Below, in pieces: positions 5,562 through 40,379 of a DNA stretch of 49,873 nt. The notes under the pieces were generated by a model that saw only the letters and a program-made list of their open reading frames with translations, did no database searches and was not told the DNA's origin. Position numbers and translations under genes: made by a program. How positions within the stretch are numbered: position 1 is the first letter of the stretch; every line of letters begins with the position of its first letter. The stretch comes from Herbaspirillum frisingense (GTDB lineage Bacteria; Pseudomonadota; Gammaproteobacteria; Burkholderiales; Burkholderiaceae_D), in contig WNDX01000011.1 of NCBI GenBank assembly GCA_009914615.1, forward strand, positions 1 to 49,873. Reading direction: 5' to 3'.

Positions 5562-7976
5562 TTACTTCTTGGCCAAATGCTGCCAGGTATCGATCACCGT
5601 GTCAGGGTTCAGCGAGATGGACTCGATGCCCTGCGCCATCAGCCACTCGGCGAAGTCCGGGTGATCCGAGGGACCCTGGCCGCAGATGCCGACGTACTTG
5701 CCCTTGGCCAGGCAAGTCGAGATGACCTTGGTCAGCAAGGCTTGCAGCGCCGGATCGCGCTCGTCGAAATCCGCCGCCAGCAGCTCCATGCCGGAATCGC
5801 GGTCCAGGCCCAGGGTCAGCTGGGTCAGGTCGTTGGAACCGATCGAGAAGCCGTCGAAGTGTTCCAGGAACTGCTCGGCCAGGATGGCGTTGGACGGCAC
5901 TTCGCACATCATGATCACGCGCAGGCCGTTTTCGCCGCGCTTCAGGCCGTACTTGCCGAGCAGACCGATGACCTTCTCCGCCTGGCCCAGGGTACGCACG
6001 AACGGCACCATTACCTCCACGTTGGTCAGGCCCATGTCTTCGCGCACGCGCTTCATGGCCTGGCATTCCATCTGGAAGGCTTCGGCGAAATCGTCGGCCA
6101 GGTAGCGGGCGGCGCCGCGGAAGCCCAGCATCGGGTTTTCTTCGTCCGGCTCGTAACGCGAACCGCCGATCAGCTTCTTGTACTCGTTGGACTTGAAGTC
6201 GGACAGGCGCACGATCACCGGCTTGGGCCAGAAGGCCGCGGCGATGGTGGCGATGCCTTCGGCCAGCTTGTCCACGTAGAAGGCCTTGGGCGAAGCGTGG
6301 CCGCGCGCCACCGATTCCACCGCCTTCTTCAGGTCGGCGTCGATGTTCGGGTATTCCAAGATCGCCTTCGGATGCACGCCGATGTTGTTGTTGATGATGA
6401 ATTCCAGACGCGCCAGGCCCACGCCGCCGTTGGGGATCGACTGGAAGTCGAACGCCAGTTGCGTGTTGCCCACGTTCATCATCACCTTCAGCGGGATTTC
6501 CGGCAGCTCGCCGCGCGCCACTTCGGTCACTTCGGTTTCCAGCAGGCCGTCGTAGATCTTGCCTTCGTCGCCTTCGGCGCAGGACACGGTCACCAGGGTG
6601 CCGTCCTTCAGCACATCGGTGGCGTCGCCGCAGCCGACCACCGCCGGCACGCCCAGTTCACGGGCGATGATGGCCGCGTGGCAGGTGCGACCGCCACGGT
6701 TGGTGACGATGGCCGAAGCGCGCTTCATCACCGGCTCCCAGTTGGGATCGGTCATGTCGGCGACCAGCACGTCGCCGGGCTGCACGCGCTCCATTTCGGC
6801 CGGGTCATTGATCACGCGTACCGGACCGGCACCGATCTTCTGGCCGATCGCGCGGCCGGTGGCCAGCACGGTACCGGAGCTCTTCAGCTTGAAGCGTTGC
6901 TGGGCGTCGGTCGCCTTCTGTTGCGACTTCACGGTTTCCGGACGCGCCTGCAGGATGTAGAGCTTGCCGTCGCGGCCATCCTTGCCCCACTCGATGTCCA
7001 TTGGACGCTGGTAGTGCTTCTCGATGATGACGGCGTACTTGGCCAGCTCGACGACTTCGGCGTCGGTCAGCGAATAGCGGTTGCGCAGTTCGACCGGAAC
7101 ATCCACGGTCTTGACGGAGCGGCCGGCCTTGGCTTCGCCGGTGAATTCCATCTTGATCAGCTTGGAGCCCAGGTTGCGGCGGATCACCGGCTGCTTGCCC
7201 AGTTCCAGCATGGGCTTGTGCACGTAGTACTCGTCCGGGTTCACGGCGCCCTGCACCACGGTTTCGCCCAGGCCATAGCTGGAGGTGATGAAGACCACGT
7301 CCTTGAAGCCCGATTCGGTATCGATGGTGAACATCACGCCGGCGGCGCCGACATCGGAGCGCACCATGCGCTGCACGCCGGCCGACAGCGCGACCTCGGC
7401 GTGGGTGAAGCCCTTGTGCACGCGGTACGAGATCGCGCGGTCGTTGTACAGCGAGGCGAAGACGTGCTTCATCGCTTCCAGCACGTTGTCGATGCCGACC
7501 ACGTTGAGGAAGGTTTCCTGCTGGCCGGCGAAGGACGCGTCCGGCAGGTCTTCCGCGGTGGCGGAAGAACGCACGGCGAACGACATCTCGCCGGTCGAAT
7601 CGGCCACCAGCTTGTCGTAGAAGGAACGGATCTCCTGATCCAGGCGCGGCTGGAACGGCGTGTCAATGATCCACTGGCGGATCTCGGCGCCGGCCTGAGC
7701 CAGTGCGCGCACGTCGTCGATATCCAGCTTTTCCAGGCGCGTGGCGATACGCGCGGCCAGGGTCGGGCCACCGTCGGCGCTGTGCTCAAGGAAATCACGG
7801 AAGGCTTGCGCAGTGGTGGCAAAACCGCCCGGCACGCGTACACCCGCGCCGGCCAGCTGGCTGATCATTTCACCCAGCGATGCGTTTTTGCCGCCGACGG
7901 ACTCGACGTCCGTCATGCGAAGAGTTTCAAAGGAGGCTACGTATACTGCCCCCTGGGTATTTACTGCGTTGGACAT
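5562..7976 (-). CDS. ppsA: Phosphoenolpyruvate synthase
   Basis: This 804-residue enzyme converts pyruvate, ATP and water to phosphoenolpyruvate, AMP and phosphate for gluconeogenesis. The N-terminal ATP-binding domain starts with '[15 protein letters not shown]'. The central swivelling domain has the phosphohistidine motif '[15 protein letters not shown]'. The C-terminal PEP/pyruvate barrel ends with '[11 protein letters not shown]' and '[13 protein letters not shown]'. The chosen ATG has AGGGG five bases upstream; an in-frame extension of 15 residues has no better signal and lacks homology. Length fits the E. coli enzyme (792). It is transcribed away from ppsR, whose product controls it by phosphorylation. 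Confidence 0.97.
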
Positions 7977-8279
7977 GACAACCCCTAGCTTGATGATAAG
8001 AAATCTTCGCGGGTGCGGCATGCGTCAGTGTATTTTTGTTATTCTGCGACGGTTGCGGCAGCAGTGGCGGCATCGGAGACGAGCCCAGAGACATCATGAA
8101 ACGCGCGCACGCACCGAGGACGTTTGCCAGTGCAAACATCGCAACATACTCGGAAAAATTACGTGGGCGAAGGATGGTCATCAGGATGAGCTTCTCGATT
8201 TGTTGCTAAGCATTGTACCGCGTGAAATCATTTTTGTTCATTGCACCACCCTTTTTTTATATTGACACAAGACAACATC
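7977..8279. other. Divergent ppsA-ppsR intergenic region
   Basis: This 303-base stretch without a gene should hold both divergent promoters. It contains a 14-base palindrome TTTGC-CAGT-GCAAA at 8123-8136 that could be an operator. TGAAACG, resembling half of a Cra (FruR) site, lies at 8097-8103. No convincing ppsA promoter was found by eye. Confidence 0.4.
8234..8262 (+). promoter_or_regulatory. Possible ppsR promoter
   Basis: TTGTTC, a 17-base spacer and TTATAT resemble a sigma-70 promoter. The predicted transcript would begin only about 10 bases before the ppsR ATG, which itself has no clear Shine-Dalgarno sequence. That would make the mRNA almost leaderless. This is weak evidence. Confidence 0.3.
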
Positions 8280-9134
8280 ATGCTCGACCCCATTCCCCTG
8301 CCGCGCCCGGCGCCGTTCATCGCCGCCAACCGTACCGTGTTCTTCGTCTCCGACGGCACCGGGATCACCGCCGAGACGCTCGGCCATTCGGTGCTGAGCC
8401 AGTTCGAGCTGCGTTTCAAGCAGGTGCGCCTGCCCTTCATCGACACGCTGGACAAGGCTCACGACGCCACCCGCAAGATCAATGAGGCCTACCAGGTGGA
8501 CGGCAAGCTGCCCATCGTGTTTTCCACGCTGGTGAAGTCCGAGCTGTCGTCGGTCATCCGCCAGGCCAAGGCCATGCACATGGATCTGTTCCAGACCTTC
8601 GTCGAGCCGCTGGAACAGGAACTGGAGATGAAGTCCACCCATACCATCGGCCGCAGCCACAACACGGCCGATTCCGAGGAATACAAGAACCGCATCGAGG
8701 CCATCAATTTCTCGCTGGCGCACGACGACGGCCAGTCCAACAAGAACCTGTCGGAAGCGGACGTGATCCTGGTGGGTGTGTCGCGCTCGGGCAAGACGCC
8801 GACCAGCCTGTACCTGGCGATGCAGTTCGGCATCAAGGCCGCCAACTACCCCCTGATCCCGGAAGATTTCGAGCGTGACAAACTGCCCAGCGGCCTGGTG
8901 ATGCACAAGAAGAAGATCTTCGGCCTGACCATTGCCGCCGAGCGCCTGGCCGAGGTGCGCAACGAGCGCCGGCCCGGCAGCAAGTATGCGGCGCTGGAGA
9001 ATTGCCGGTATGAAATCAATGAGGCTGAAAAGATGATGCGCCGCGAAGGCATACGCTGGATGTCTTCGACCGCCAAGTCGATCGAAGAGATCGCCGCGAC
9101 CATCCTGCAAGAGATCAAGCCGGAGACGCGCTGA
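8280..9134 (+). CDS. ppsR: PEP synthase regulatory protein (bifunctional kinase/pyrophosphorylase)
   Basis: This 284-residue DUF299-family protein switches PEP synthase off by ADP-dependent threonine phosphorylation and on by phosphate-dependent dephosphorylation. The family start '[20 protein letters not shown]' is intact. The P-loop '[11 protein letters not shown]' lies near residue 162, followed by '[15 protein letters not shown]'. The ATG was chosen over an upstream TTG that would add 13 residues with no homology. Divergent placement beside ppsA is the usual arrangement and supports the target. An intrinsic terminator follows about 60 bases after the stop. Confidence 0.95.
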
Positions 9135-9195
9135 GGTTGCAGACGCCCGGGAACCCGGAGGCCTGAGAGGAAAAGGCAGGCAATGCCAACAGATC

Positions 9196-9233
9196 AATGC
9201 CGTTCAGCCAACATTGAACGGCATTTTTCGTTG
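9196..9233 (+). terminator. Intrinsic terminator of ppsR
   Basis: An 11-bp perfect stem (AATGCCGTTCA and complement) with an 8-base loop is followed by TTTCGTT. The remaining 145 bases up to the next gene show only a small hairpin (ACGCTG/CAGCGT, 9309-9326). Confidence 0.85.
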
Positions 9234-9378
9234 AGAAGATGGCTGGCAGGCGTGCGGCCCACATAGTATCGCAGCGCCTCTCACGGTACACGCCCCGCGA
9301 CCCTCGATACGCTGCTCGCGCAGCGTCCCGGCCCGAACCGCGAATCGGAATCGGGGAAATCACGCTGGCCGGCCAAAC

Positions 9379-9843
9379 TCAGCCTTGGCCGCGATCCCGC
9401 ACATAGACGGTCAACACGCGCGTCCGCTTCTTCGGTCCGTTGATGAAGGTCTCCATTGTGAAACGACCCGCATCGTCCAGCGTATAGGCGGCGTTGTAGC
9501 AGTCAGGCCCGCAGAGATGATCGCCAGCCGGCGCCAGCAGATTGCCCCGCAGTGCGTAGCGCTGATAAGGCTGGCCGACGCGCTCGCCATCGGCGAACAG
9601 AACCTCGACGTCCGTCGGGTTGAAGCGATAGTCGAACACGCGGGTGAAGGGAATCGCGCGCGCGCCGGGCGGTGCGGCGAGCATGCGCAACGCGCCGTGT
9701 TCGCGATAGATCAGTTGTGCTGCCAGATCGCCGTCATCGAAGCGCCCTTCGCCGCTGGCCTGGGCCTGGGCCTGCTCGCCGCCTTCCCAGATCGTGCGCG
9801 TGAAACGCCAGCCGCCGCGAAAATAATCCGCCAGCGTGGCCAT
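9379..9843 (-). CDS. DUF6314 family protein, function unknown
   Basis: This is a 154-residue soluble protein without a signal peptide. Its pattern fits the DUF6314 family: an early 'RFTRTI' and 'GEGRF' strand, a central 'YREHGAL', then 'VEVLFADGERVG', 'DHLCGPDCYNAAY' with conserved His, Cys and Asp, and a closing 'NGPKKRTRVLTVYVR'. No catalytic role is known for this family; the barrel-like strand pattern suggests ligand binding, which is inference. The start was placed at an internal ATG, because the longer reading would overlap the upstream methyltransferase gene. No strong ribosome-binding site is visible. It is the last gene of the long minus-strand block. Confidence 0.7.
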   Translation of the reverse strand: MATLADYFRGGWRFTRTIWEGGEQAQAQASGEGRFDDGDLAAQLIYREHGALRMLAAPPGARAIPFTRVFDYRFNPTDVEVLFADGERVGQPYQRYALRGNLLAPAGDHLCGPDCYNAAYTLDDAGRFTMETFINGPKKRTRVLTVYVRDRGQG

Positions 9844-9878
9844 ATGGACGGGAAGAAAATCCGCCACGACTACCTTGC

Positions 9879-10670
9879 TCAGCGACCGACGGTGCGCTGG
9901 CGCACCTGCTCGAAAAAGCACACCGCGGCGGCAGCGGCCACGTTCAGGGATTCCATCTCGCCCAGATGCGGGATCACCACTTCATGCGAAGCGGCCTCCT
10001 GCAATTGCGGCGACACGCCCTGCCCTTCGTGGCCGAACAGCCAGGCCACATTGCCCGACAGGTCGCAGTCGTAGATCGTCTGCGCGGCATGCGAGCTGGT
10101 GGCCAGCACCGGAATCTGGCTGGACATGCACAGCGGCGCCAGGTCGGCGCCTTCGAAGATGTCCAGCACGAAATGCGCGCCCATGCCGGCGCGCAAGACC
10201 TTGGGCGACCAGGCCGCCGCAGTGCCGGATGAGCAAAACACCTGCCGGATGCCGGCCGCCGCCGCGCTGCGCAGGATCGAGCCCAGATTGCCCGGATCCT
10301 GCAGGCCGTCCAGCAGCACTGCCGATTGCGTCAACTCCTGCGGCTGCCTGGGTGCGGGCGTGGCCACCAGCAGCAGCAAGCCGACGCCGTTCTCGACCTG
10401 GCTGACCGCGCCGTAGAGGTTGTCGCTCAGCACCAGGCATTGCGCCCGGCCCTGTTCGCACTGCGCCAGGATGGGCGCGACTTCCGGGTGGTATTGCGCA
10501 CTCTCGGCCACCACGCACATCTGCGGCGCGCCACGATGCTGCAGCCAGGCCTGGGCCAGATGCACACCGTCCAGCAAGGTCTGGCCTGCGCGGCGTCGTG
10601 CCTGACTGCTGGCGGCGAGCTGCTTGAGATCCTTGAACAGCGGATTGTCTTTGGAGGTGATGAGCTTCAT
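9879..10670 (-). CDS. TrmH/SpoU-family RNA 2'-O-methyltransferase
   Basis: The 263-residue protein methylates ribose 2'-hydroxyls in tRNA or rRNA using S-adenosylmethionine through the knotted SPOUT fold. Motif 1 is 'DPGNLGSILRSAAAAG' (Asn128, Arg134), motif 2 'LFGHEGQGVS' (about 211-220) and motif 3 'SLNVAAAAAV' (about 241-250). The N-terminal 100 residues ('LITSKDNPLFKDLKQL', 'LLDGVHLAQAWL') form the RNA-binding domain of the RlmB-like/TsnR group. The start has AGGA upstream and gives the usual 'KLITSKDNP' N-terminus. It sits 16 bases after rnhB, a normal pairing in Burkholderiales. The modified nucleotide cannot be told from sequence. Confidence 0.88.
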   Translation of the reverse strand: MKLITSKDNPLFKDLKQLAASSQARRRAGQTLLDGVHLAQAWLQHRGAPQMCVVAESAQYHPEVAPILAQCEQGRAQCLVLSDNLYGAVSQVENGVGLLLLVATPAPRQPQELTQSAVLLDGLQDPGNLGSILRSAAAAGIRQVFCSSGTAAAWSPKVLRAGMGAHFVLDIFEGADLAPLCMSSQIPVLATSSHAAQTIYDCDLSGNVAWLFGHEGQGVSPQLQEAASHEVVIPHLGEMESLNVAAAAAVCFFEQVRQRTVGR

Positions 10671-31328: not shown

Positions 31329-31829
31329 TTACAGGAATCGATCGAGAATCTTGCGGCTGTGCTTGTCCAGCGCCTTCTGGTCGCGGATCAGGAACTGGAT
31401 CCCGTGACTGTCCGCGATCAGCAGCGCAGGCGCCGCCAGGCGGCGGATGTCTTCTTCGCCCTTGAGCGTGAAGGTGGTGGTGCCGCGCGTGGTCTGCACG
31501 GTCCAGTCGCTGGGCGTAGCAAAGGTGGACACGCCGACGATGCGCTGGATCTCCGGCATGAATTCTCGGCTCCCCAATTCCTCTTCGATCAGCTTGCGTA
31601 CGACGGCGTCGAGCTGCTCCAGGCCGTCGATCCAGGCCAGTTCGTGACCATCGCTGCTGACCACCGACAGGCCGCGATCGGGCGAGGTGATGGGAAAGGC
31701 GCGCACCGGAATCACGTTCTCGTGCGCCACGCCGTCGGCGCCGGTGAACACCAGGCGACCGAAGCTGTTGCGGTGCAGCCGGAACGACGGCTGCTGGCCG
31801 GGGTTGGCGGTGATCGTCATGCTCTTCAT
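31329..31829 (-). CDS. DUF1854 family protein, cyanophycin-locus associated
   Basis: The 166-residue soluble protein has no signal peptide or membrane helix. Features include 'RLHRNSFGRLVFTGADGVAH', 'VRAFPITSPDRGLSVVSSDG', 'ELAWIDGLEQLD', 'EELGSREFMPEIQRI' and 'DWTVQTTRGTTTFTLKGEED'. This is the DUF1854 pattern, a family that recurs beside cyanophycin synthetase genes. The start codon overlaps the stop of the ABC transporter gene (ATGA), so the two are translationally coupled and probably work together. Biochemical function is unknown; a regulatory or accessory role to the transporter is inference. Confidence 0.75.
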   Translation of the reverse strand: MKSMTITANPGQQPSFRLHRNSFGRLVFTGADGVAHENVIPVRAFPITSPDRGLSVVSSDGHELAWIDGLEQLDAVVRKLIEEELGSREFMPEIQRIVGVSTFATPSDWTVQTTRGTTTFTLKGEEDIRRLAAPALLIADSHGIQFLIRDQKALDKHSRKILDRFL

Positions 31830-34102
31830 TCCCCCTTCTCTTCTTCGCTGACCGAGACTTCCGCCTCGCCGTCAGGATTGCGCGCCTGCGCCTGGTACAG
31901 CTTGTAATAATGGCCTTCGCGCGCCATCAGTTCTTCGTGATTACCCACTTCGACCACCTGGCCGCGGTCCAGCACCACCAGCCGGTCGGCCTTGCGCAGC
32001 GTGGACAGGCGGTGCGCGATGGCGATCGTGGTGCGGCCCTGGACCAGGTTGTCCAGCGCCTTCTGGATTTCCTTCTCGGTGGTGGTGTCCACCGACGAGG
32101 TCGCTTCGTCCAGGATGAGGATGCGCGGATCGATCAGTAGCGCGCGCGCGATCGAGATGCGCTGGCGCTCGCCACCCGACAGCGCCTGGCCACGCTCGCC
32201 CACCAGCGAATCGTAGCCCTGCGGCAGGCGCAGGATGAATTCGTGCGCGTGCGCGGCGCGGGCGGCGGCGATGATTTCCTCACGCGTGGCTTCCGGCTTG
32301 CCGTAGGCGATGTTCTCGGCGATCGTGCCGAAGAACAGGAAAGGCTCCTGCAACACCAGCCCGATGTTGCGGCGATATTCCGAGATCGGCAACGAACGGA
32401 TATCGACGCCGTCGATGCGGATCGCGCCTTCCGACACGTCATAGAAGCGGCAGATCAGGTTGACCATGGTGGATTTGCCGGAACCGCTGTGGCCGACCAG
32501 GCCGATCATCTCGCCCGGGGCGATCGACAGGCTCATGTTGCGGATCACCGCGCGGTTGCCGTAGCGGAAGCCGATGTTGCGCACCTCGATGGCGCCCTCC
32601 ACCTTTTCCAGATGAACCGGATTGGCCGGCTCGGGCACGCTGGAGACGTGATCCAGGATATCGAAGATGCGCTTGGCCCCGGCCGCCGCCTTCTGGGTCA
32701 CCGACACGATGCGGCTCATCGAATCCAGGCGCGTGTAGAAACGGCTGATATAGGCCAGGAAGGCGGTCAGCACACCCACCGTGATCTGGTTGCTGGACAC
32801 CTGCCAGATGCCGAACACCCACACCACCAGCAGGCCGACTTCGGTCAGGAAGGTGACGGTCGGAGTAAACAGCGACCAGATCTTGTTGACCCGGTCGTTG
32901 ACCATCAGGTTATGCCGGTTGGCTTCGCGAAAGCGCGCCACTTCGCGCTTTTCCTGGGCAAAGGCCTTGACCACGCGGATGCCGGGGATGGTGTCGGCCA
33001 GCACGTTGGTCACCTCCGACCAGATGCGGTCGATCTTTTCGAAGCCATGGCGCAGGCGGTCACGCACCACGTGGATCATCCAGGCAATGAACGGCAGCGG
33101 CAGCAGGATCACCAGCGCCAGCCAGGGATTGATGGAAATCAGGATGGCCGCCGTCATGATGATCATCAAGACGTCGATGGCGAAATCCAGCAGGTGCAGC
33201 GACAGGAACACGCAGATGCGGTCGGTTTCCGAACCGATGCGCGCCATCAGGTCGCCGGTGCGCTTGCCGCCGAAATATTCCTGCGACAGCCGCAACAGGT
33301 GCGAATAGGTGGTGGTGCGCAAGTCGGCGCCGATACGCTCGGACACCAGCGCCAGGATGTAGGTACGGGCCCAGCCCAGGCCCCAGGCCAGCAAGGCCGC
33401 GCCCAAGAGGCCCGACAGGTACAGCATGGCCAGATGGGTGTCGATCGGCGCGCCGTTCTGGAACGGGATCAGCACGTTATCCATCAGCGGCATGGTCATG
33501 TAGGGCGGCACCAGCGTGGCGGCAGTGGACGCCAGCGTCAGCAGGAAGCCCAGCAGCAGCGAGCCCTTGTAGGGCTTGGCGAAGCGCGACAGGCGGAACA
33601 GCGCCCAGGTCGAGGGCGGCGCTTCCTTGATTTCTGGGCAGATGGCGCAGGTTTCCTGGCCTTCCGGAATGGGCGCCTTGCATTGCGGGCAGACGTCGCC
33701 CTCTTCCTCGGCCTTCACGCCCGATGCCAGCAGGTCGCGCTGCTGCTCGAACAGCTTGATCAGGCGCAGCGCCTGCGGATTCTGGGCCAGCGTGTAACGC
33801 CAGACCGCCAGGCGGCCGGCAGCATCGCACAGCTCCAGAGCGCCCACGCCCGCGTGGTCATGGTGCTTCAGCGCGAGTTCAGGACAGTATTCCCACTCCT
33901 GCCAGACCGTCCCCTCCGGGGTATTGGCCAGCAAACGCCGTTCGGTGGCGACCACCAGCGAAGACTTGAATTGCAGTTGCGAGTCGAGATCCAGCTCCAG
34001 CCAGGCGACGATTTTCTCGTTGGCGGCCAGACGCGCGGCGATTTCCGTTTTCCAGCGTTCGGGCAGGCTGGATGGGGCGGAAGGAAGGGAGTCAGTAGTC
34101 AT
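31826..34102 (-). CDS. ABC transporter (exporter-type, fused TMD-NBD) with N-terminal zinc-ribbon region, cyanophycin-locus associated
   Basis: This 758-residue protein has three parts. The first 165 residues are unusual: a beta-rich segment with 'SSLVVATERRLLAN', then a likely zinc ribbon with Cys138, Cys141, Cys152 and Cys155 (CPQC and CAIC). A type IV exporter membrane domain with six predicted helices follows (about 175-455). The ATPase has Walker A 'GHSGSGKST', signature 'LSGGERQRISIARALL', Walker B 'ILILDEATSSVD' and switch His in 'AIAHRLSTL'. The protein resembles MsbA/lipid or peptide exporters but the N-terminal region is not typical of them. It is divergent from cphA', and the same gene pair accompanies cyanophycin loci elsewhere. 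The substrate is unknown. Confidence 0.85.
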   Translation of the reverse strand: MTTDSLPSAPSSLPERWKTEIAARLAANEKIVAWLELDLDSQLQFKSSLVVATERRLLANTPEGTVWQEWEYCPELALKHHDHAGVGALELCDAAGRLAVWRYTLAQNPQALRLIKLFEQQRDLLASGVKAEEEGDVCPQCKAPIPEGQETCAICPEIKEAPPSTWALFRLSRFAKPYKGSLLLGFLLTLASTAATLVPPYMTMPLMDNVLIPFQNGAPIDTHLAMLYLSGLLGAALLAWGLGWARTYILALVSERIGADLRTTTYSHLLRLSQEYFGGKRTGDLMARIGSETDRICVFLSLHLLDFAIDVLMIIMTAAILISINPWLALVILLPLPFIAWMIHVVRDRLRHGFEKIDRIWSEVTNVLADTIPGIRVVKAFAQEKREVARFREANRHNLMVNDRVNKIWSLFTPTVTFLTEVGLLVVWVFGIWQVSSNQITVGVLTAFLAYISRFYTRLDSMSRIVSVTQKAAAGAKRIFDILDHVSSVPEPANPVHLEKVEGAIEVRNIGFRYGNRAVIRNMSLSIAPGEMIGLVGHSGSGKSTMVNLICRFYDVSEGAIRIDGVDIRSLPISEYRRNIGLVLQEPFLFFGTIAENIAYGKPEATREEIIAAARAAHAHEFILRLPQGYDSLVGERGQALSGGERQRISIARALLIDPRILILDEATSSVDTTTEKEIQKALDNLVQGRTTIAIAHRLSTLRKADRLVVLDRGQVVEVGNHEELMAREGHYYKLYQAQARNPDGEAEVSVSEEEKGE

Positions 34103-34197
34103 TTAACGGCAACATTGGGCCCGAAGCGAGCAGTTTGGCTATTGGTGATCGATGCACAGGCCGGCACGGGCCTGAGCCCGATTGCGGGCAGCGCGCG

Positions 34198-34226
34198 ATT
34201 ATAGCGCAGCGCCCTAGCGGTCCGAT
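34198..34226 (-). promoter_or_regulatory. Promoter of the ABC transporter-DUF1854 operon
   Basis: The minus strand has a perfect -10 TATAAT in the context CGCTATAATCGCGC (34203 down to 34198), about 95 bases before the transporter start. No good -35 was found at 17 bases. Confidence 0.45.
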
Positions 34227-34605
34227 ATGAGTACATAGGAGTCCATCGCATAACGCAAGAGACGACTAAACGGTGTACGCATGAGTCCAAGCAAATTTCC
34301 CGCGGAATGCGAAATGCCGCGAATACGGGCCTTGGCGGCCTATCCATCCTGGGTTGACCGTCGTTTTTTTGGTTAATTCGCTCCACGAGCGCCGGACAGT
34401 CTGCGACAATACCGCCCAACAACATCCTCACAAGCATAATTCCAATGAGATCCGCCTCCCCATCCCGCAAAACCAACCCGTTTTCCTGCGTGAGGCGCAC
34501 CCTTTGAATTTCCTTCCGGCAAGCCAATCCTTGCCCGTTTGCCGTTCCCAGTAAACCAATCGCCGTCCAACACGTTAGGGGAGCATGCGCTATTCTGACG
34601 GAATG

Positions 34606-34636
34606 CTGACCGGGGAATTCTGTCGTAACTTATAGA
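34606..34636 (+). promoter_or_regulatory. Possible promoter of cphA'-cphA
   Basis: CTGACC and TTATAG with an 18-base spacer. The predicted leader would be about 210 bases, long enough for post-transcriptional control. This is weak evidence. Confidence 0.35.
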
Positions 34637-34853
34637 ATCCCTCACGCGGCCCGGCAGGGCTTCCTCGCACGGAAGAGCCTGGAAGCGCCCGATGCCGGGC
34701 CTGCGATGGATTTGCGAATGGCGCCGTCCTTATTCCGCGAGGTCATACGGACGACAGCCTGAAAACGTTTCACAAATAAGACAGCCCCGGCGGCAGTACG
34801 CGGGTCGGCAACATGGATACACCAACGGCACTTTACGCGGCACATCTCCAGAC

Positions 34854-37052
34854 ATGAAAAACATCGAATTCCTCCGTTTCCTGCCCTTGAAAGGTCCGAA
34901 CATCTGGACCTACCGTTCGGCCCTCGAAGTGTGGATCGACATCGGCGAACTGGAAGATTTTCCGTCCAACACCATCCCCGGATTCACCGAACGCCTGACC
35001 ACCTGGCTGCCCACGCTCATCGAGCACCGCTGCAGCTATGAGGTGCGCGGCGGTTTCGTGCGCCGGCTGGAAGAAGGCACCTGGCCCGGCCACATCCTGG
35101 AACACGTCACGCTGGAGCTGCAAAACCTGGCCGGCCTGCCCGGCGGCTTCGGCAAGGCGCGCGAAACCAATGTGCGCGGCATCTACAAGGTGGTCGTGCG
35201 CGCCCGCCACGAGACGGTCACCCGCGCCGCGCTGTACGCCGCCCGCGACCTGGTGATGGCCGCCATCGAAGACAAGCCGTATGACCTCGACGCCACGCTG
35301 ACCAAGCTGCGCCGCATGGTGGACAGGCTGTGCCTGGGCCCCAGCACCGCCTGCATCGTGGACGCCGCCGACGAACGCCGCATTCCCACCATCCGCCTGT
35401 CCGAAGGCAACCTGGTGCAGCTCGGCCATGGCTGCAAGTCGCGCCGCATCTGGACCGCCGAGTCGGACCAGACCGGCGCCATCGCCGAAGGCATTTCGCG
35501 CGACAAGGATCTGACCAAGTCGCTGCTGGAAACCTGCGGCGTGCCGGTGCCGGAAGGCCGCCTGGTCGAAAGCCCGGAAGACGCCTGGGAAGCCGCCGAA
35601 GACATCGGCCTGCCGGTGGTCGTCAAGCCCTGCGACGCCAACCACGGCCGTGGCGTCTTCATCGATCTGAATACCCGCGAAGAAATCGAAACCGCCTACA
35701 AGGTCGCGCTGGAAGAAGGCAGCGGCGTGCTGGTGGAACGCTTCATCTCCGGCCTGGAACACCGTCTGCTGATCGTCGGCGGCAAGCTGGCCGCGGCCGC
35801 CCGCGGCGAGCCCATCTTCATCGTCGGCGACGGCAAGTCCACCGTGCAGGATCTGCTTGACGAGCTCAACCGCGACCCGCGCCGCGGCCTGCTGGAGGAA
35901 CATCTGCTGGATCCCGTGCTGCTGGAACGCGAACCGGCCGCGGCACTGGAACTGCAGCGCCAGAACCTGACCACCGAATCCGTGCCGGCCGCCGGCCGCC
36001 GCATCCTGCTGCTGCGCAACGGCAACGTATCGGCCGACATCACCGACCAGGTGCACCCCAGCGTGGCGGCCGCCGCCTCGCTGGCCGCGCGCATCGTCGG
36101 CCTGGACATCGCCGGCGTGGACATCGTGGCTGAAGACATCTCGCGCCCGCTGGCCGACCAGGGCGGCGCCATCGTCGAAGTCAACGCCGGCCCCGGCCTG
36201 CTGATGCACCTCAAGCCCTCCGAAGGCGAAGCGCGCCCGGTGGGCGAAGCCATCGTCGATCATCTGTTCGGCGAAGATGAAAACGGCCGCATCCCCATCG
36301 TCGGTGTCACCGGCACCCACGGCAAGACCACCATCTCGCGCCTGGTGGCCCGCATCATCCACCTGTCCGGCAAGCACGTCGGCTTGGCTTGCGGCGACGG
36401 CCTGTATTTCGGCGAACGCCAGGTCGAGCGCGGCAACCGCGCCAACTGGGAAGCCGCGCACCGGGTGCTGTTGAACCGCGCGGTGGAAGCCGCCGTGTTC
36501 GAGAACGGCAGCGTCTCCATCCTGGCCGAAGGCCTGGCCTATGACCGCTGCCTGGTGGGCGTGGTGGCCAATATCGATCCCAACGACAGCCTGCCCGAGT
36601 ACTACATCGAGAACGCCGAGCAGATCGCCACCAAGGTCAAGCGCACCCAGGTCGATCTGGTGTTGCCGGACGGCGCCGCCGTGCTCAATGCCGACGATCC
36701 GCTGGTGGCCGACATGGCCGAGCTGTGCGACGGCGAAGTGATCTTCTTCGGCACCGATCCCGCCTCCGAACTGCTGGCTGCGCACCTGAAGGAGGGCCGT
36801 CGCGCCGTGTTCCTGCGCGGCGGCGACCTGATCCAGGCCGAGGGCGAGCGCGAATGCAAGGTCAGCTCGGTGGACGCCATCCCGCTGACCGAAAACGGCG
36901 CCGTGGCCTACCAGGTCGAGAACGTGCTGGCGGCCGTCGGCGCGGCGTGGGCGCTGGGCATTTCGCCCGAGGTGATCCGTGCCGGCATCGAACTGTTCGG
37001 CACCGAACAGGCCGAGCAGCAAGGGCTGAAGTTCAAGACCCAGGCGGCCTGA
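34854..37052 (+). CDS. cphA': Cyanophycin synthetase-like protein CphA' (C-terminally short paralogue)
   Basis: This 732-residue paralogue of the synthetase is encoded just before cphA. The N-terminal domain ('FLPLKGPNIWTYRSALEVWI') and 'RLCLGPSTACIVDAA' match the CphA layout. The ATP-grasp domain runs about 210-475 ('DKDLTKSLLETCGVPVPEGR', 'VVVKPCDANHGRGVFID', 'IVEVNAGPGLLMHLKPS'). The Mur-ligase-like domain has the P-loop 'GVTGTHGKTT' near 484. It then ends after 'QVENVLAAVGAAWALGISPE', about 130 residues earlier than CphA, so the C-terminal Mur lobe is missing. No frameshift is visible. The protein probably has a restricted or auxiliary role. The start ATG has no clear Shine-Dalgarno sequence. 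Confidence 0.88.
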   Translation: MKNIEFLRFLPLKGPNIWTYRSALEVWIDIGELEDFPSNTIPGFTERLTTWLPTLIEHRCSYEVRGGFVRRLEEGTWPGHILEHVTLELQNLAGLPGGFGKARETNVRGIYKVVVRARHETVTRAALYAARDLVMAAIEDKPYDLDATLTKLRRMVDRLCLGPSTACIVDAADERRIPTIRLSEGNLVQLGHGCKSRRIWTAESDQTGAIAEGISRDKDLTKSLLETCGVPVPEGRLVESPEDAWEAAEDIGLPVVVKPCDANHGRGVFIDLNTREEIETAYKVALEEGSGVLVERFISGLEHRLLIVGGKLAAAARGEPIFIVGDGKSTVQDLLDELNRDPRRGLLEEHLLDPVLLEREPAAALELQRQNLTTESVPAAGRRILLLRNGNVSADITDQVHPSVAAAASLAARIVGLDIAGVDIVAEDISRPLADQGGAIVEVNAGPGLLMHLKPSEGEARPVGEAIVDHLFGEDENGRIPIVGVTGTHGKTTISRLVARIIHLSGKHVGLACGDGLYFGERQVERGNRANWEAAHRVLLNRAVEAAVFENGSVSILAEGLAYDRCLVGVVANIDPNDSLPEYYIENAEQIATKVKRTQVDLVLPDGAAVLNADDPLVADMAELCDGEVIFFGTDPASELLAAHLKEGRRAVFLRGGDLIQAEGERECKVSSVDAIPLTENGAVAYQVENVLAAVGAAWALGISPEVIRAGIELFGTEQAEQQGLKFKTQAA

Positions 37053-37138
37053 GCGCAGACGCCAGACGCAACAAACCGGTAGCAACAGACAGCACACAGA
37101 CCGACTCAAGATCAAGAGACACTCAGGAAAACTTGTCC

Positions 37139-39712
37139 ATGGACGTATCCCGCATACGCGCACTGCGCGGCCCCAATCTCTGGTGCAGACACACTGCCAT
37201 CGAAGCCATCGTTTCCTGTCCCGAATCGGAACGGGTGGTGGACGACATGCCCGGCTTCGAGGTGCGCCTGCGCGCCCGTTTCCCGCAGATCGGCTTCCTC
37301 GAACCCGACGGCGGCAAGCAAATGGTGTCGATGGCCCACGCGCTGGCGGCCGCCGCCCTGGCCCTGCAATCGCAGGCCGGCTGCCCGGTGACCTTCAGCC
37401 GCACCGTCTCCACCATCGAGACCGGCATCTACCAGGTCGTGGTCGAGTACAGCGAAGAGGAAGTCGGCCGCCTGGCCTTCGACCTGGCGCTGCAACTGTG
37501 CCTGGCGGCGCAGGCCGACACCCCGTTCGACCTGACCGGCGCCCTCGCCCGCATCCGCGAACTGGATGAAGACGTGCGCCTGGGCCCCAGCACCGGCTCC
37601 ATCGTCAACGCCGCAGCCAAACGCGGCATCCCGTTCCGCCGCCTGACCCAGGGCAGCATGGTGCAGTTCGGCTGGGGCAGTCGCCAGAAGCGCATCCAGG
37701 CCGCCGAGACCAGCCATACCAGCGCCATCGCGGAGTCGATCGCGCAGGACAAGGACCTGACCAAGATGCTGTTGCACGCAGCCGGCGTGCCGGTGCCCAA
37801 CGGCCGCGTGGTCACCACCGTGGAAGACGCGCTCAAGGCCGCCGAGGAAATCGGCTCGGCCGTGGTGATCAAGCCGCTGGACGGCAACCAGGGCAAGGGC
37901 GTGGCGGTCAACATCAGCACTCCGGCTCAGATCGAACACGCTTTCGCCAATGCCGCGCGCATCAGCGACGAGGTGATCGTCGAACGCTACCTGCCCGGTC
38001 ACGACTTCCGCCTGCTGGTGATCGGCAAGACCCTGGTGGCCGCGGCCCGTCGCGATCCGCCGCAAGTCATCGGCGACGGCGTGCATACCATCCGCCAGCT
38101 GATTGACCAGGTCAACGCCGACCCGCTGCGCGGCGACGGCCATGCCACCTCGCTGACCAAGATCCGCCTGGACGATATCGCCCTGTCGGTGCTGGCCGGA
38201 CAGAATCTCGATCCGGAAGCGATTCCGGCGCAAGGCGTGCGCGTGGTCCTGCGCAATAACGCCAACCTCTCCACCGGCGGCACCGCCACCGACGTCACCG
38301 ACGACGTGCACCCCGAGATGGCCGCGCGCGCCATCGCCGCAGCGCAGATGGTCGGCCTCGACATCTGCGGCGTGGACGTGGTCTGCAACTCGGTGCACAT
38401 GTCGATGGAAGAACAAGGCGGCGGCATCGTCGAAGTCAACGCCGCGCCCGGCCTGCGCATGCACCTCTCGCCCTCGTACGGCAAGAGCCGCGACGTCGGC
38501 GAGGCGATCATCTCGACCATGTACGACGACGGCGACGACGGCCGCATCCCCGTGGTGGCCGTGGCCGGCACCAACGGCAAGACCACCACCGTGCGCCTGA
38601 TCACCCACCTGCTGGCCAAGACCGGCCTGCGCGTGGGCATGACCAATACCGACGGCGTCTATATCGATGGCCAGCGCACCGACACCGGCGACTGCAGCGG
38701 CCCGCGCAGCGCCCGCAACGTGCTGTTCCACCCCGACGTCGATGCCGCCGTCCTGGAAACCGCCCGTGGCGGCGTGCTGCGCGAGGGCCTGGGCTTCGAC
38801 CGCTGCGCCGTGGCTGTGGTGACCAACATCGGCATGGGCGACCACCTGGGCCTGTCCTACATCAGCACCGTGGAAGACCTGGCCGTGGTCAAGCGCGTGA
38901 TCGTGGAAAACGTCGCGCCCACCGGCACCGCCGTGCTCAACGCGGCCGACCCGATGGTTTCCAAGATGGCCTCGTCCTGCCCCGGCTCGGTGACCTTCTT
39001 CGCGCTCGATCCGCAGCATCCCATCATGGCAACGCACCGCGCCCAGGGCCATCGCATCGTCTATCGCGACGGCGACGCCATCGTGGCCACGCAAGGCGAT
39101 GTCGAGAAGCGCCTGAAGCTCTCCGGCATCCCGCTCACCCGTAATGGCGCCATCGGCTTCCAGGTCGAAAACGTGATGGCCTCGGTCGGCGCCGCCTGGG
39201 CGCTCAACCTGGACTGGGATCAGATCACCGCCGCCCTGACCAGCTTCATCAGCGACAGCGGCACCGCGCCGGGCCGCTTCAACCTGTTCGACTACAAGGG
39301 CGCCACCCTGATCGCCGACTACGGCCACAATCCGGACGCCATCCAGGCCCTGATCAAGGCCGTGGACGGCATGCCGGCCAAGCGCCGCTCGGTGGTCATC
39401 AGCGGCGCGGGCGATCGCCGCGACGTCGATATCACGCGCCAGACCGAACTGCTGGGCGATGCCTTCGACGAAGTGGTGCTGTACCAGGACCAGTGCCAGC
39501 GCGGCCGCGTGGACGGCGAAGTGATCGCGCTACTGCGCCAGGGCCTGGAAAAGGCCACCCGCACCAGCGACGTCAAGGAAATCTATGGCGAGTTCCTGGC
39601 CATCGACACCGCCCTGGCCTCGCTGAAGAACGGCGACCTGTGCCTGATCCTGATCGACCAGGTCGAGGAAGCGCTGGCGCACATCGCCATGCGCGTCAAC
39701 GAAAACGCCTGA
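37139..39712 (+). CDS. cphA: Cyanophycin synthetase
   Basis: The 857-residue cytosolic enzyme polymerises Asp and Arg into the storage polymer cyanophycin (multi-L-arginyl-poly-Asp) using ATP. The N-terminal domain starts 'DVSRIRALRGPNLWCRHTAI'. The ATP-grasp domain adds Asp ('DKDLTKMLLHAAGVPVPNGR', 'VIKPLDGNQGKGVAVNI', 'IVEVNAAPGLRMHLSPS'). The Mur-ligase-like domain adds Arg, with P-loop 'AGTNGKTTT' near 478 and the complete C-terminal lobe including 'LIADYGHNPDAIQAL'. The gene lies 86 bases after cphA'. AGGAAAAC lies better in front of an in-frame TTG two codons upstream of the ATG used here, so the real start may be that TTG. No cyanophycinase gene is in the window. Confidence 0.96.
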   Translation: MDVSRIRALRGPNLWCRHTAIEAIVSCPESERVVDDMPGFEVRLRARFPQIGFLEPDGGKQMVSMAHALAAAALALQSQAGCPVTFSRTVSTIETGIYQVVVEYSEEEVGRLAFDLALQLCLAAQADTPFDLTGALARIRELDEDVRLGPSTGSIVNAAAKRGIPFRRLTQGSMVQFGWGSRQKRIQAAETSHTSAIAESIAQDKDLTKMLLHAAGVPVPNGRVVTTVEDALKAAEEIGSAVVIKPLDGNQGKGVAVNISTPAQIEHAFANAARISDEVIVERYLPGHDFRLLVIGKTLVAAARRDPPQVIGDGVHTIRQLIDQVNADPLRGDGHATSLTKIRLDDIALSVLAGQNLDPEAIPAQGVRVVLRNNANLSTGGTATDVTDDVHPEMAARAIAAAQMVGLDICGVDVVCNSVHMSMEEQGGGIVEVNAAPGLRMHLSPSYGKSRDVGEAIISTMYDDGDDGRIPVVAVAGTNGKTTTVRLITHLLAKTGLRVGMTNTDGVYIDGQRTDTGDCSGPRSARNVLFHPDVDAAVLETARGGVLREGLGFDRCAVAVVTNIGMGDHLGLSYISTVEDLAVVKRVIVENVAPTGTAVLNAADPMVSKMASSCPGSVTFFALDPQHPIMATHRAQGHRIVYRDGDAIVATQGDVEKRLKLSGIPLTRNGAIGFQVENVMASVGAAWALNLDWDQITAALTSFISDSGTAPGRFNLFDYKGATLIADYGHNPDAIQALIKAVDGMPAKRRSVVISGAGDRRDVDITRQTELLGDAFDEVVLYQDQCQRGRVDGEVIALLRQGLEKATRTSDVKEIYGEFLAIDTALASLKNGDLCLILIDQVEEALAHIAMRVNENA

Positions 39713-39773: not shown

Positions 39774-40379
39774 TCAGGCCGGCCGTTTCAATTGCGCCAG
39801 CACATGATCCTTGCGCTGCGCCGGACTGCCCGGCGGCACCTCCAGCAAACGGTAGCCCAGCGCCGCATAGACGGCCTTGACGGCATCATGCGTGGCAACC
39901 GCCGTCGCCCAATCCTGCCGGCGTTCGTGGTCGGTTTCGTAGATCTCCCGCCAGGGCGGCAGGATGAAGATCGGCTCCGCATATCGCCATTGCCTGGCGG
40001 CCTGATTCGCCCGCGCCAGCAGTCGGGCCGCCTGCGGCAGCCTGTCCAGACCTTCCAGTTGCATGTAGCCGAGCACATCGGGAATGCCGCGGTCGCAAAA
40101 AACCGGAGCGCCCTGCCCGGCATGCGCCTCATGCAGGCGCAATTCCGCCGCCAGCATCTCGGCGGAGAACGCCAGGCTGTCTTTCCATGGCAGCGCATCG
40201 CCGCCGGCTGCCATTTGCCGCCGGATCACGTCGCGCCCCACCTCTTCCTTGACGCCGTAGCCGGCCTCTTGCAAGGCGGCCAGCAGCGTGGTCTTGCCGG
40301 CCCCGGGGCCGCCGGTCAGGATGTGGAAATGATTCATGCGGAAGACCTCGTCTCCCGCGGGTTCGAATGCTTCTTGCAT
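39774..40379 (-). CDS. AAA-type predicted ATPase (AAA_28-like), function unknown
   Basis: The 201-residue cytosolic P-loop protein has 'FHILTGGPGAGKTTLLAAL' at about 17-35 as Walker A. 'VFCDRGIPDVLGYMQL' near 95-110 looks like the acidic substrate-side motif of nucleoside-kinase-like ATPases. The rest ('DVIRRQMAAG', 'FILPPWREIYETDHERRQDW') fits the AAA_28 family, which resembles small-molecule kinases. The first ATG was kept because it has AAGGAG at ideal distance; an internal ATG 14 codons later would also keep the P-loop. A (GAAG)6 microsatellite lies 126 bases upstream. The substrate is unknown. Confidence 0.75.
   Translation of the reverse strand: MQEAFEPAGDEVFRMNHFHILTGGPGAGKTTLLAALQEAGYGVKEEVGRDVIRRQMAAGGDALPWKDSLAFSAEMLAAELRLHEAHAGQGAPVFCDRGIPDVLGYMQLEGLDRLPQAARLLARANQAARQWRYAEPIFILPPWREIYETDHERRQDWATAVATHDAVKAVYAALGYRLLEVPPGSPAQRKDHVLAQLKRPA

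Follow-up and report, generated by a model that had tools for sequence, protein, structure and literature searches.

Organisation of the cyanophycin locus

The window analysed here is a 49,873-nucleotide stretch of Herbaspirillum frisingense DNA (GenBank assembly GCA_009914615.1, contig WNDX01000011.1), an entire contig (G000:C13) from a 4.7-Mb genome that is 99.32% complete by tool estimate. Between positions 31,329 and 39,712 it holds a cyanophycin (Cph) locus of four genes. Two cyanophycin synthetase paralogues lie on the + strand: cphA' (34854..37052; 732 aa), with an intact N domain, a G domain whose acceptor site appears altered and a truncated M domain, and cphA (37139..39712; 857 aa), with largely intact G and M sites and the N-domain motif lost. 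The likely start of cphA is the ATG at 37139; the cphA' open reading frame opens at 34692, and homology supports 34854 as its likely start. Divergent from them, on the – strand, are the genes for an ABC exporter-type half transporter (31826..34102; 758 aa), comprising a PH-like domain, a zinc ribbon, a transmembrane domain (TMD) and a nucleotide-binding domain (NBD), and for a 166-aa DUF1854 protein (31329..31829; Pfam PF08909, 178.9 bits). Gene calls and family scores thus bear out the initial annotation, which had described two cphA paralogues facing a 758-residue ABC gene that overlaps a DUF1854 gene by 4 nt.

Both partners of the ABC–DUF1854 pair were already known to NCBIfam as equivalogs named for an association with cyanophycin metabolism. 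The window proteins belong to these families, exceeding the curated cut-offs of NF052233 (CphA_assoc_ABC; 1461.9 bits versus 880) and NF052234 (CphA_assoc_prot; 237 versus 150). The family names state an association with cyanophycin and not a function, and the family tables are silent on the PH-like domain, the wider non-cyanophycin family and the TMD signature described below.

Active-site motifs are divided between CphA' and CphA

The three active sites that CphA1 has on a single chain are here distributed over two. Many CphA1 enzymes have in their N domain a Cx19HxxEH peptidase site that makes primers, present in 83% of nr70 CphA1 and hence not universal (PMC9262961), and the G-domain residues of TeCphA1 include the Asp-binding Arg323 and Arg458 (PMC9427784). 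For the M domain we used three motifs read off alignments and not taken from a paper (P-loop, DYxHNP and GxGDRRD). In alignments with solved CphA1 structures (7lg5, 7wac and others), the window CphA covers all three domains (N, G and M) and CphA' extends to where the M lid begins. The window CphA has the CphA1 G-domain residues (Asp-binding R323, N394 and R458; ATP/Mg ligands K261, D431 and E450; R309) and all three M-domain motifs, and lacks Cx19HxxEH. CphA' has this endo-cyanophycinase/primer motif (C60, H80, E83 and H84; 35031..35105, +) and departs from CphA1 in its incomplete M domain and in the Asp-binding residues, with Gly318 (35805..35807, +) aligned to Arg323 and Leu450 (36201..36203, +) aligned to Arg458 of TeCphA1.

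The same division recurs in other genomes. We compared 55 stretches (set 1: the window, 47 fetched DUF1854 loci and 7 fetched cphA loci without DUF1854) and the best 80 named loci of at least 489 relatives (set 2); the two sets share genomes. Among readable pairs, Cx19HxxEH was found in 46/46 CphA' and 0/46 CphA of set 1, and in 64/64 CphA' and 0/64 CphA of set 2. Set aside were L069 and L091 in set 1 and, in set 2, twelve loci lacking a complete or nearby copy of one or both partners, together with L108, L112, L114 and L118. The CphA of L084 and L090 contain HALEH, with the Cys absent.

Residues were counted in 109 CphA' and 107 CphA non-identical sequences, with 12 canonical or other sequences and 5 odd ones kept apart; the CphA' counts cover sequences that reach the position. 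CphA' retains the G-site residues K261 (107/107), R309 (107/107), D431 (106/106), E450 (106/106) and H267 (105/107). At the Asp-binding sites, R323 is replaced by Gly (106/107) and R458 by Leu (103/106), and none of the 106 CphA' longer than 450 residues has the STGG loop. CphA keeps K261, R309, R323, N394, D431, E450, R458 and STGG wherever they are not gapped or cut (101–103 of 107). His267 of CphA1 is Gln in 102/104 CphA of this kind, and also in the Magnetococcales gene of L091. The mean majority-residue fraction of the G domain is similar in the two proteins (0.783 in CphA' versus 0.813 in CphA), while that of the M core is lower in CphA' (0.641 versus 0.795). The CphA' G domain is thus nearly as conserved as that of CphA and is not simply decaying, although the M core is eroded. 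We read the CphA' G site as probably under constraint with a changed acceptor pocket. Judged from sequence, CphA appears to keep the Asp- and Arg-adding sites, while CphA' appears to have lost the Asp-binding residues and mostly the Arg site.

We consider this reciprocal loss of sites, absent from the initial annotation, to be the locus's more important feature. It is new in this analysis, together with the N-terminal architecture and wider family of the ABC protein and the charged TMD signature; we found no report of it in the open-licence literature on cyanophycin synthetases, in which no search was aimed at it. Group 1 cphA clusters of activated-sludge bacteria were described as two cphA and an ABC transporter gene without cphB, with the two cphA treated as copies and a composite transposon suggested (PMC10687191). 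Active sites and DUF1854 are not taken up in the passages on these clusters. Labelling both genes as cphA copies, as is done there, may hide two different enzymes.

Outgroup loci appear to distribute the three sites differently. In a Chromatiaceae metagenome-assembled genome (MAG; L118), one gene encodes the N motif and an ATP-grasp domain with STGG, and the other has only Mur domains over the Pfam cut-off; L189, from the Lamprocystis genome of L123, looks like the same split. In two Planctomycetota MAGs (L112 and L114) the gene has the N motif and Mur domains and no ATP-grasp; in the L114 genome, a different contig carries another gene, which has ATP-grasp and STGG and lacks the N motif. In a FastTree phylogeny of 49 sequences, 39 split-type proteins, including the physically unlinked L189 and L198, separate from 10 others (support 0.752); the betaproteobacterial-type CphA' clade has support 1.0 and CphA 0.713. 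A single origin of the split-type proteins therefore seems likely and, as the tree support is moderate, not proved.

The ABC–DUF1854 pair is linked to cph genes in Pseudomonadota

The ABC gene adjoins DUF1854 in 48/48 DUF1854 loci of set 1. Another 47 fetched loci likewise have the pair and a cph gene in one stretch, and 64/80 named loci have the full set of four genes, many of the others being short contigs; the arrangement is thus not due to chance. The cassette is divergent, or co-directional as in Nitrosospira (L109), Rhodocyclus (L121) and Accumulibacter (L170 and L184). In set 1 the cph genes lie directly beside the pair except in L078 (G092), where ~7.6 kb intervene. L091, from a Magnetococcales MAG with L108 as its twin, has a single CphA-like gene cut by the contig end.

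The initial annotation had stated that the pair accompanies cyanophycin genes elsewhere, and genome counts agree. Of 100 relatives, 61 are DUF1854-positive, and 61/61 of these have a CphA-type match of at least 400 bits (counted by eye); only two genomes, G042 and G099, have such a match without DUF1854 among the matches listed. In a phylum-wide draw of 299 Pseudomonadota genomes, DUF1854 was found in 16 and the Cph N-domain family over its cut-off in 20, with 16/16 overlap. The Cph-only genomes (G185, G364, G182 and G389) have one N-domain match each, in frames of 897–1355 residues. For seven outlier loci, in which cph was not near in the fetched stretch or the architecture was odd, the Cph family was found in the genome in 7/7 cases. 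Plasmids gave no match to DUF1854 (E up to 1) or to the ABC protein (E up to 1e–150).

Some cassettes look damaged. In L178 (Polaromonas sp. P2-4) cphA is spread over three frames, the ABC match is partial and the cassette looks broken; the DUF1854 gene of L060 (G048) and the cphA of L070/L141 are each split across two frames. L180 (Cupriavidus basilensis OR16, 7673–10453) encodes ABC and DUF1854 in one cph-linked 927-residue frame, either a fusion or a sequencing slip.

Architecture and charged signature of the ABC protein

The ABC protein has the architecture of a type IV exporter, with a fused TMD (32738..33559, –; PF00664, 147.7 bits) and NBD (32096..32542, –; PF00005, 117.3 bits) containing Walker A, signature and Walker B patterns. 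These patterns are present in 117/117 cph-type proteins. Its nearest solved structures are type IV exporters, with ABCB proteins best, followed by TM_0288 and MsbA. The window protein differs from them in its PH-like domain, zinc ribbon, DUF1854 neighbour and charged residues 306, 310 and 458. In the predicted model, residues 15–127 (33722..34060, –) form seven strands and a C-terminal helix with the topology of a bacterial PH domain. The CxxC...CxxC region noticed earlier in the N-terminus is, on direct reading, a zinc-ribbon-like CxxC-x10-CxxC at residues 138–155 (33638..33691, –).

The ribbon occurs in 42/48 set 1 loci and in 105/117 cph-type ABC proteins; it is missing in 10 of the 115 that reach the region, the other two being cut before it. 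The PH-like stretch is recognisable by eye in four of the ten ribbon-less proteins (L116, L137, L140 and L160). Among Planctomycetota homologues, 16/17 have the ribbon, and their N-termini resemble the PH-like region (by eye, from sequences only). The initial annotation had suggested that the N-terminal region could sense polymer or nitrogen state and had proposed to predict its structure. The prediction yielded the PH-like domain. On these Planctomycetota and ribbon-less proteins, the ribbon was rejected as a cyanophycin-specific sensor, and such a role for the N-terminal region as a whole is, judged from sequence, not supported.

The differences that are near-invariant between cph-type and Planctomycetota proteins fall in the membrane domain. 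Asp306 and Asp310 (33173..33187, –), in a predicted membrane segment (residues 304–322), are each present in 117/117 cph-type transporters versus 1/17 Planctomycetota homologues. Residue 458 (32729..32731, –), near the last membrane helix, is Arg in 117/117 versus Pro in 17/17. Such a charged signature would be compatible with a Cph-derived ligand, in line with the movement of a cyanophycin-related compound that the initial annotation had offered as one possibility.

For the DUF1854 protein, the predicted model (predicted local distance difference test score 82.6) had no confident match among the fold families compared, PH-like and polo-box folds included. DUF1854 is mentioned in no paper of the open-licence literature searched, alone or with cyanophycin.

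A wider ABC–DUF1854 family outside cyanophycin loci

In 149 Planctomycetota genomes we found DUF1854 in 19 and the Cph N-domain family, the only one of the cph models used as a marker here, in 13. The overlap is two genomes (G396 and G505), so that 17/19 DUF1854-positive genomes are without the Cph marker. A window-like ABC protein lies directly upstream of, or in frame with, DUF1854 in 24/25 Planctomycetota loci, which include L200, the cph-linked locus of G396; there is no match in L204. ABC and DUF1854 share one frame in L242 and L243, the latter confirmed by Pfam; we take the Pfam text to place DUF1854 at the C-terminus of transporters. Sulfolobus acidocaldarius, a control, has a DUF1854 match and none to the Cph N-domain family.

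Four Planctomycetota ABC proteins without linked cph (L226, L239, L243 and L228) score 553–625 against the NF052233 cut-off of 880. Their DUF1854 partners likewise stay below the NF052234 cut-off (L226, 101; L228, 92; with none reported for L239), as does that of L227 (134). The cph-linked L112 clears both cut-offs (1137 and 201.8). These scores and the Planctomycetota counts indicate a link to cyanophycin for the narrow family and none for the wide one. The initial annotation had named frequent occurrence of the pair in genomes without cphA as a refuting result; this is seen in the wider family and, by the four ABC proteins scanned, not in the narrow equivalog. The ABC–DUF1854 pair was thus not invented for cyanophycin alone, but its cph-linked branch goes with an unusual split synthetase.

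Neighbours beyond ABC and DUF1854 in 20 Planctomycetota stretches included a sulfatase-like frame (by eye) in 3 and several genes common to L225 and L228 only; other groups looked like shadow frames. The G396 MAG has both a cph-linked pair (L114) and a 981-residue ABC–DUF1854 frame without the charged signature (L243). In L227 (G505) no similar ABC gene was found beside the DUF1854 gene, and the Cph-family match lies ~1 Mb away in the genome.

Degradation genes and occurrence of cyanophycin

The absence of a cyanophycinase nearby, pointed out in the initial annotation, extends to the whole genome. Peptidase_S51/cyanophycinase has no match in it (10/14 control genomes were positive), and neither has IadA; one Asparaginase_2/IaaA-type gene lies on another contig (367.8 bits), and the window itself contains none of the three. 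In the absence of S51 and IadA, the CphA' N domain would be the only cyanophycin-cutting candidate that these searches point to. Among 903 betaproteobacterial genomes with CphA1, a recognisable cyanophycinase was reported in only 2.8% (PMC10206079), a figure that bears on what such loci make and how the product is released. No cyanophycin has been shown in the wild type of R. eutropha, which has two homologues, although this host does store the polymer when supplied with a foreign CphA (PMC11362209); the native genes might thus make a product that is not for storage.

A proposed two-subunit synthetase with a recruited transporter

Taking together the observed motif distribution, linkage, architecture and signature residues, we suggest that CphA and CphA' are the two subunits of one cyanophycin synthetase and that the ABC–DUF1854 pair was recruited to transport a charged peptide derived from Cph, a reading to which we assign a probability of about one half. 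We infer that CphA polymerises, its G domain adding Asp and its M domain adding Arg, with the primer-making peptidase of the N domain lost. CphA', which keeps the peptidase motif and the ATP/Mg ligands of the ATP-grasp domain, with the Asp-binding residues replaced and in the window the M-ligase end lost, would cut polymer to primers or short chains and might ligate an acceptor other than free Asp. The two proteins most likely cooperate, as a heteromer or in trans. If the split is true, primer-independent synthesis of the normal CphA1 kind would need both proteins and be beyond either one alone. ABC–DUF1854 is an exporter-type transporter whose family extends beyond cyanophycin and whose PH-like domain is putatively cytosolic. 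What it carries is most likely a charged product or intermediate of the synthetase, probably in the outward direction, and DUF1854 would be its constant partner. The analysis points to specific residues in CphA' and in the transporter and separates the wider ABC–DUF1854 question from cyanophycin.

Several observations weigh against this proposal. The M-domain P-loop lysine is still present in 56/109 CphA', and 24/109, including Cupriavidus, Ralstonia, Pandoraea and Achromobacter loci, are long forms with the Mur C-terminal region (the window CphA' is a short form); loss of M activity may thus not be uniform, least so for R. eutropha. At N394, 105/107 CphA' still have an aligned Asn, which may preserve one contact to Asp. 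The window proteins have Gly (CphA') and Ser (CphA) in place of Glu215 of TeCphA1 (by eye), so that the G site of CphA, too, departs from that of CphA1. Because the cph-type transporters resemble one another far more than they resemble the comparison group, their shared TMD residues may reflect ancestry and not substrate fit; five of the 117 (L119, L136, L153, L176 and L177) have no cph gene in view. Among the alternative partitions, L112, L114 and L118 are MAG contigs that could be misassembled or misbinned, and only one Cph-family match was found in the L112 genome. Bordetella species are named among cyanophycin-containing organisms (PMC8560796), which speaks against a general absence of cyanophycin in the group.

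CphA' could instead act chiefly as a ligase of the CphA2 kind, joining beta-Asp-Arg dipeptides back into polymer, with the ABC protein recovering or redistributing the dipeptides. In the structure 7ta5, named Glutathione synthase in its entry and which we take, like 8fxh, to be a CphA2, the R458 position holds a hydrophobic residue followed four residues on by Lys. CphA' is alike in both respects (Lys in 94/106), and its ATP ligands are near-invariant. At the same time 7ta5 keeps Arg at 323 and a SAGG-type loop, where CphA' has Gly and a deletion, and our tree held no CphA2 sequences. CphA2 is known to work with a single active site (PMC10206079). We regard this account as doubtful. That CphA' is a decaying duplicate without function is very improbable: the eroded M core would fit, but the N motif is intact in every readable pair, the ATP ligands and G domain are conserved, and both cphA copies are evenly expressed in Accumulibacter (PMC10687191).

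For the ABC–DUF1854 pair, a role without Cph transport would be to anchor or regulate the synthetase at the membrane, with the PH-like domain and ribbon binding protein or polymer. PH-like folds are common binding modules, and the predicted fold and the linkage to cph would suit such a role. Yet the ribbon and, by eye, the PH-like region also occur in Planctomycetota ABC proteins, mostly from genomes without the Cph marker, and the NBD patterns are intact in all 117 proteins with the differences in the membrane domain, as expected for a working transporter. We consider anchoring improbable. It is also unlikely, if slightly less so, that the betaproteobacterial locus has a non-storage function, in which CphA' would cut peptides and use its altered ATP-grasp site to ligate a new acceptor, and ABC–DUF1854 would export short, cut, possibly C-terminally modified cyanophycin-like peptides. 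Such a function would account both for the lack of a cyanophycinase and for wild-type R. eutropha showing no cyanophycin.

Other observations

A nitrogen-type (sigma-54-like) promoter in the divergent intergenic region was considered and dropped: a crude pattern was blank in 9/12 loci scanned, the window among them, and matched in L093, L104 and L106. Downstream of the synthetase genes, and with no link to cyanophycin seen, an AAA_28-type ATPase gene (39774–40379, –; Pfam 140.8 bits) is convergent with cphA. Four loci without ABC–DUF1854 (L095, L096, L098 and L099) have a canonical cphA beside a second, Mur-ligase-like gene in frames of 585–652 aa.

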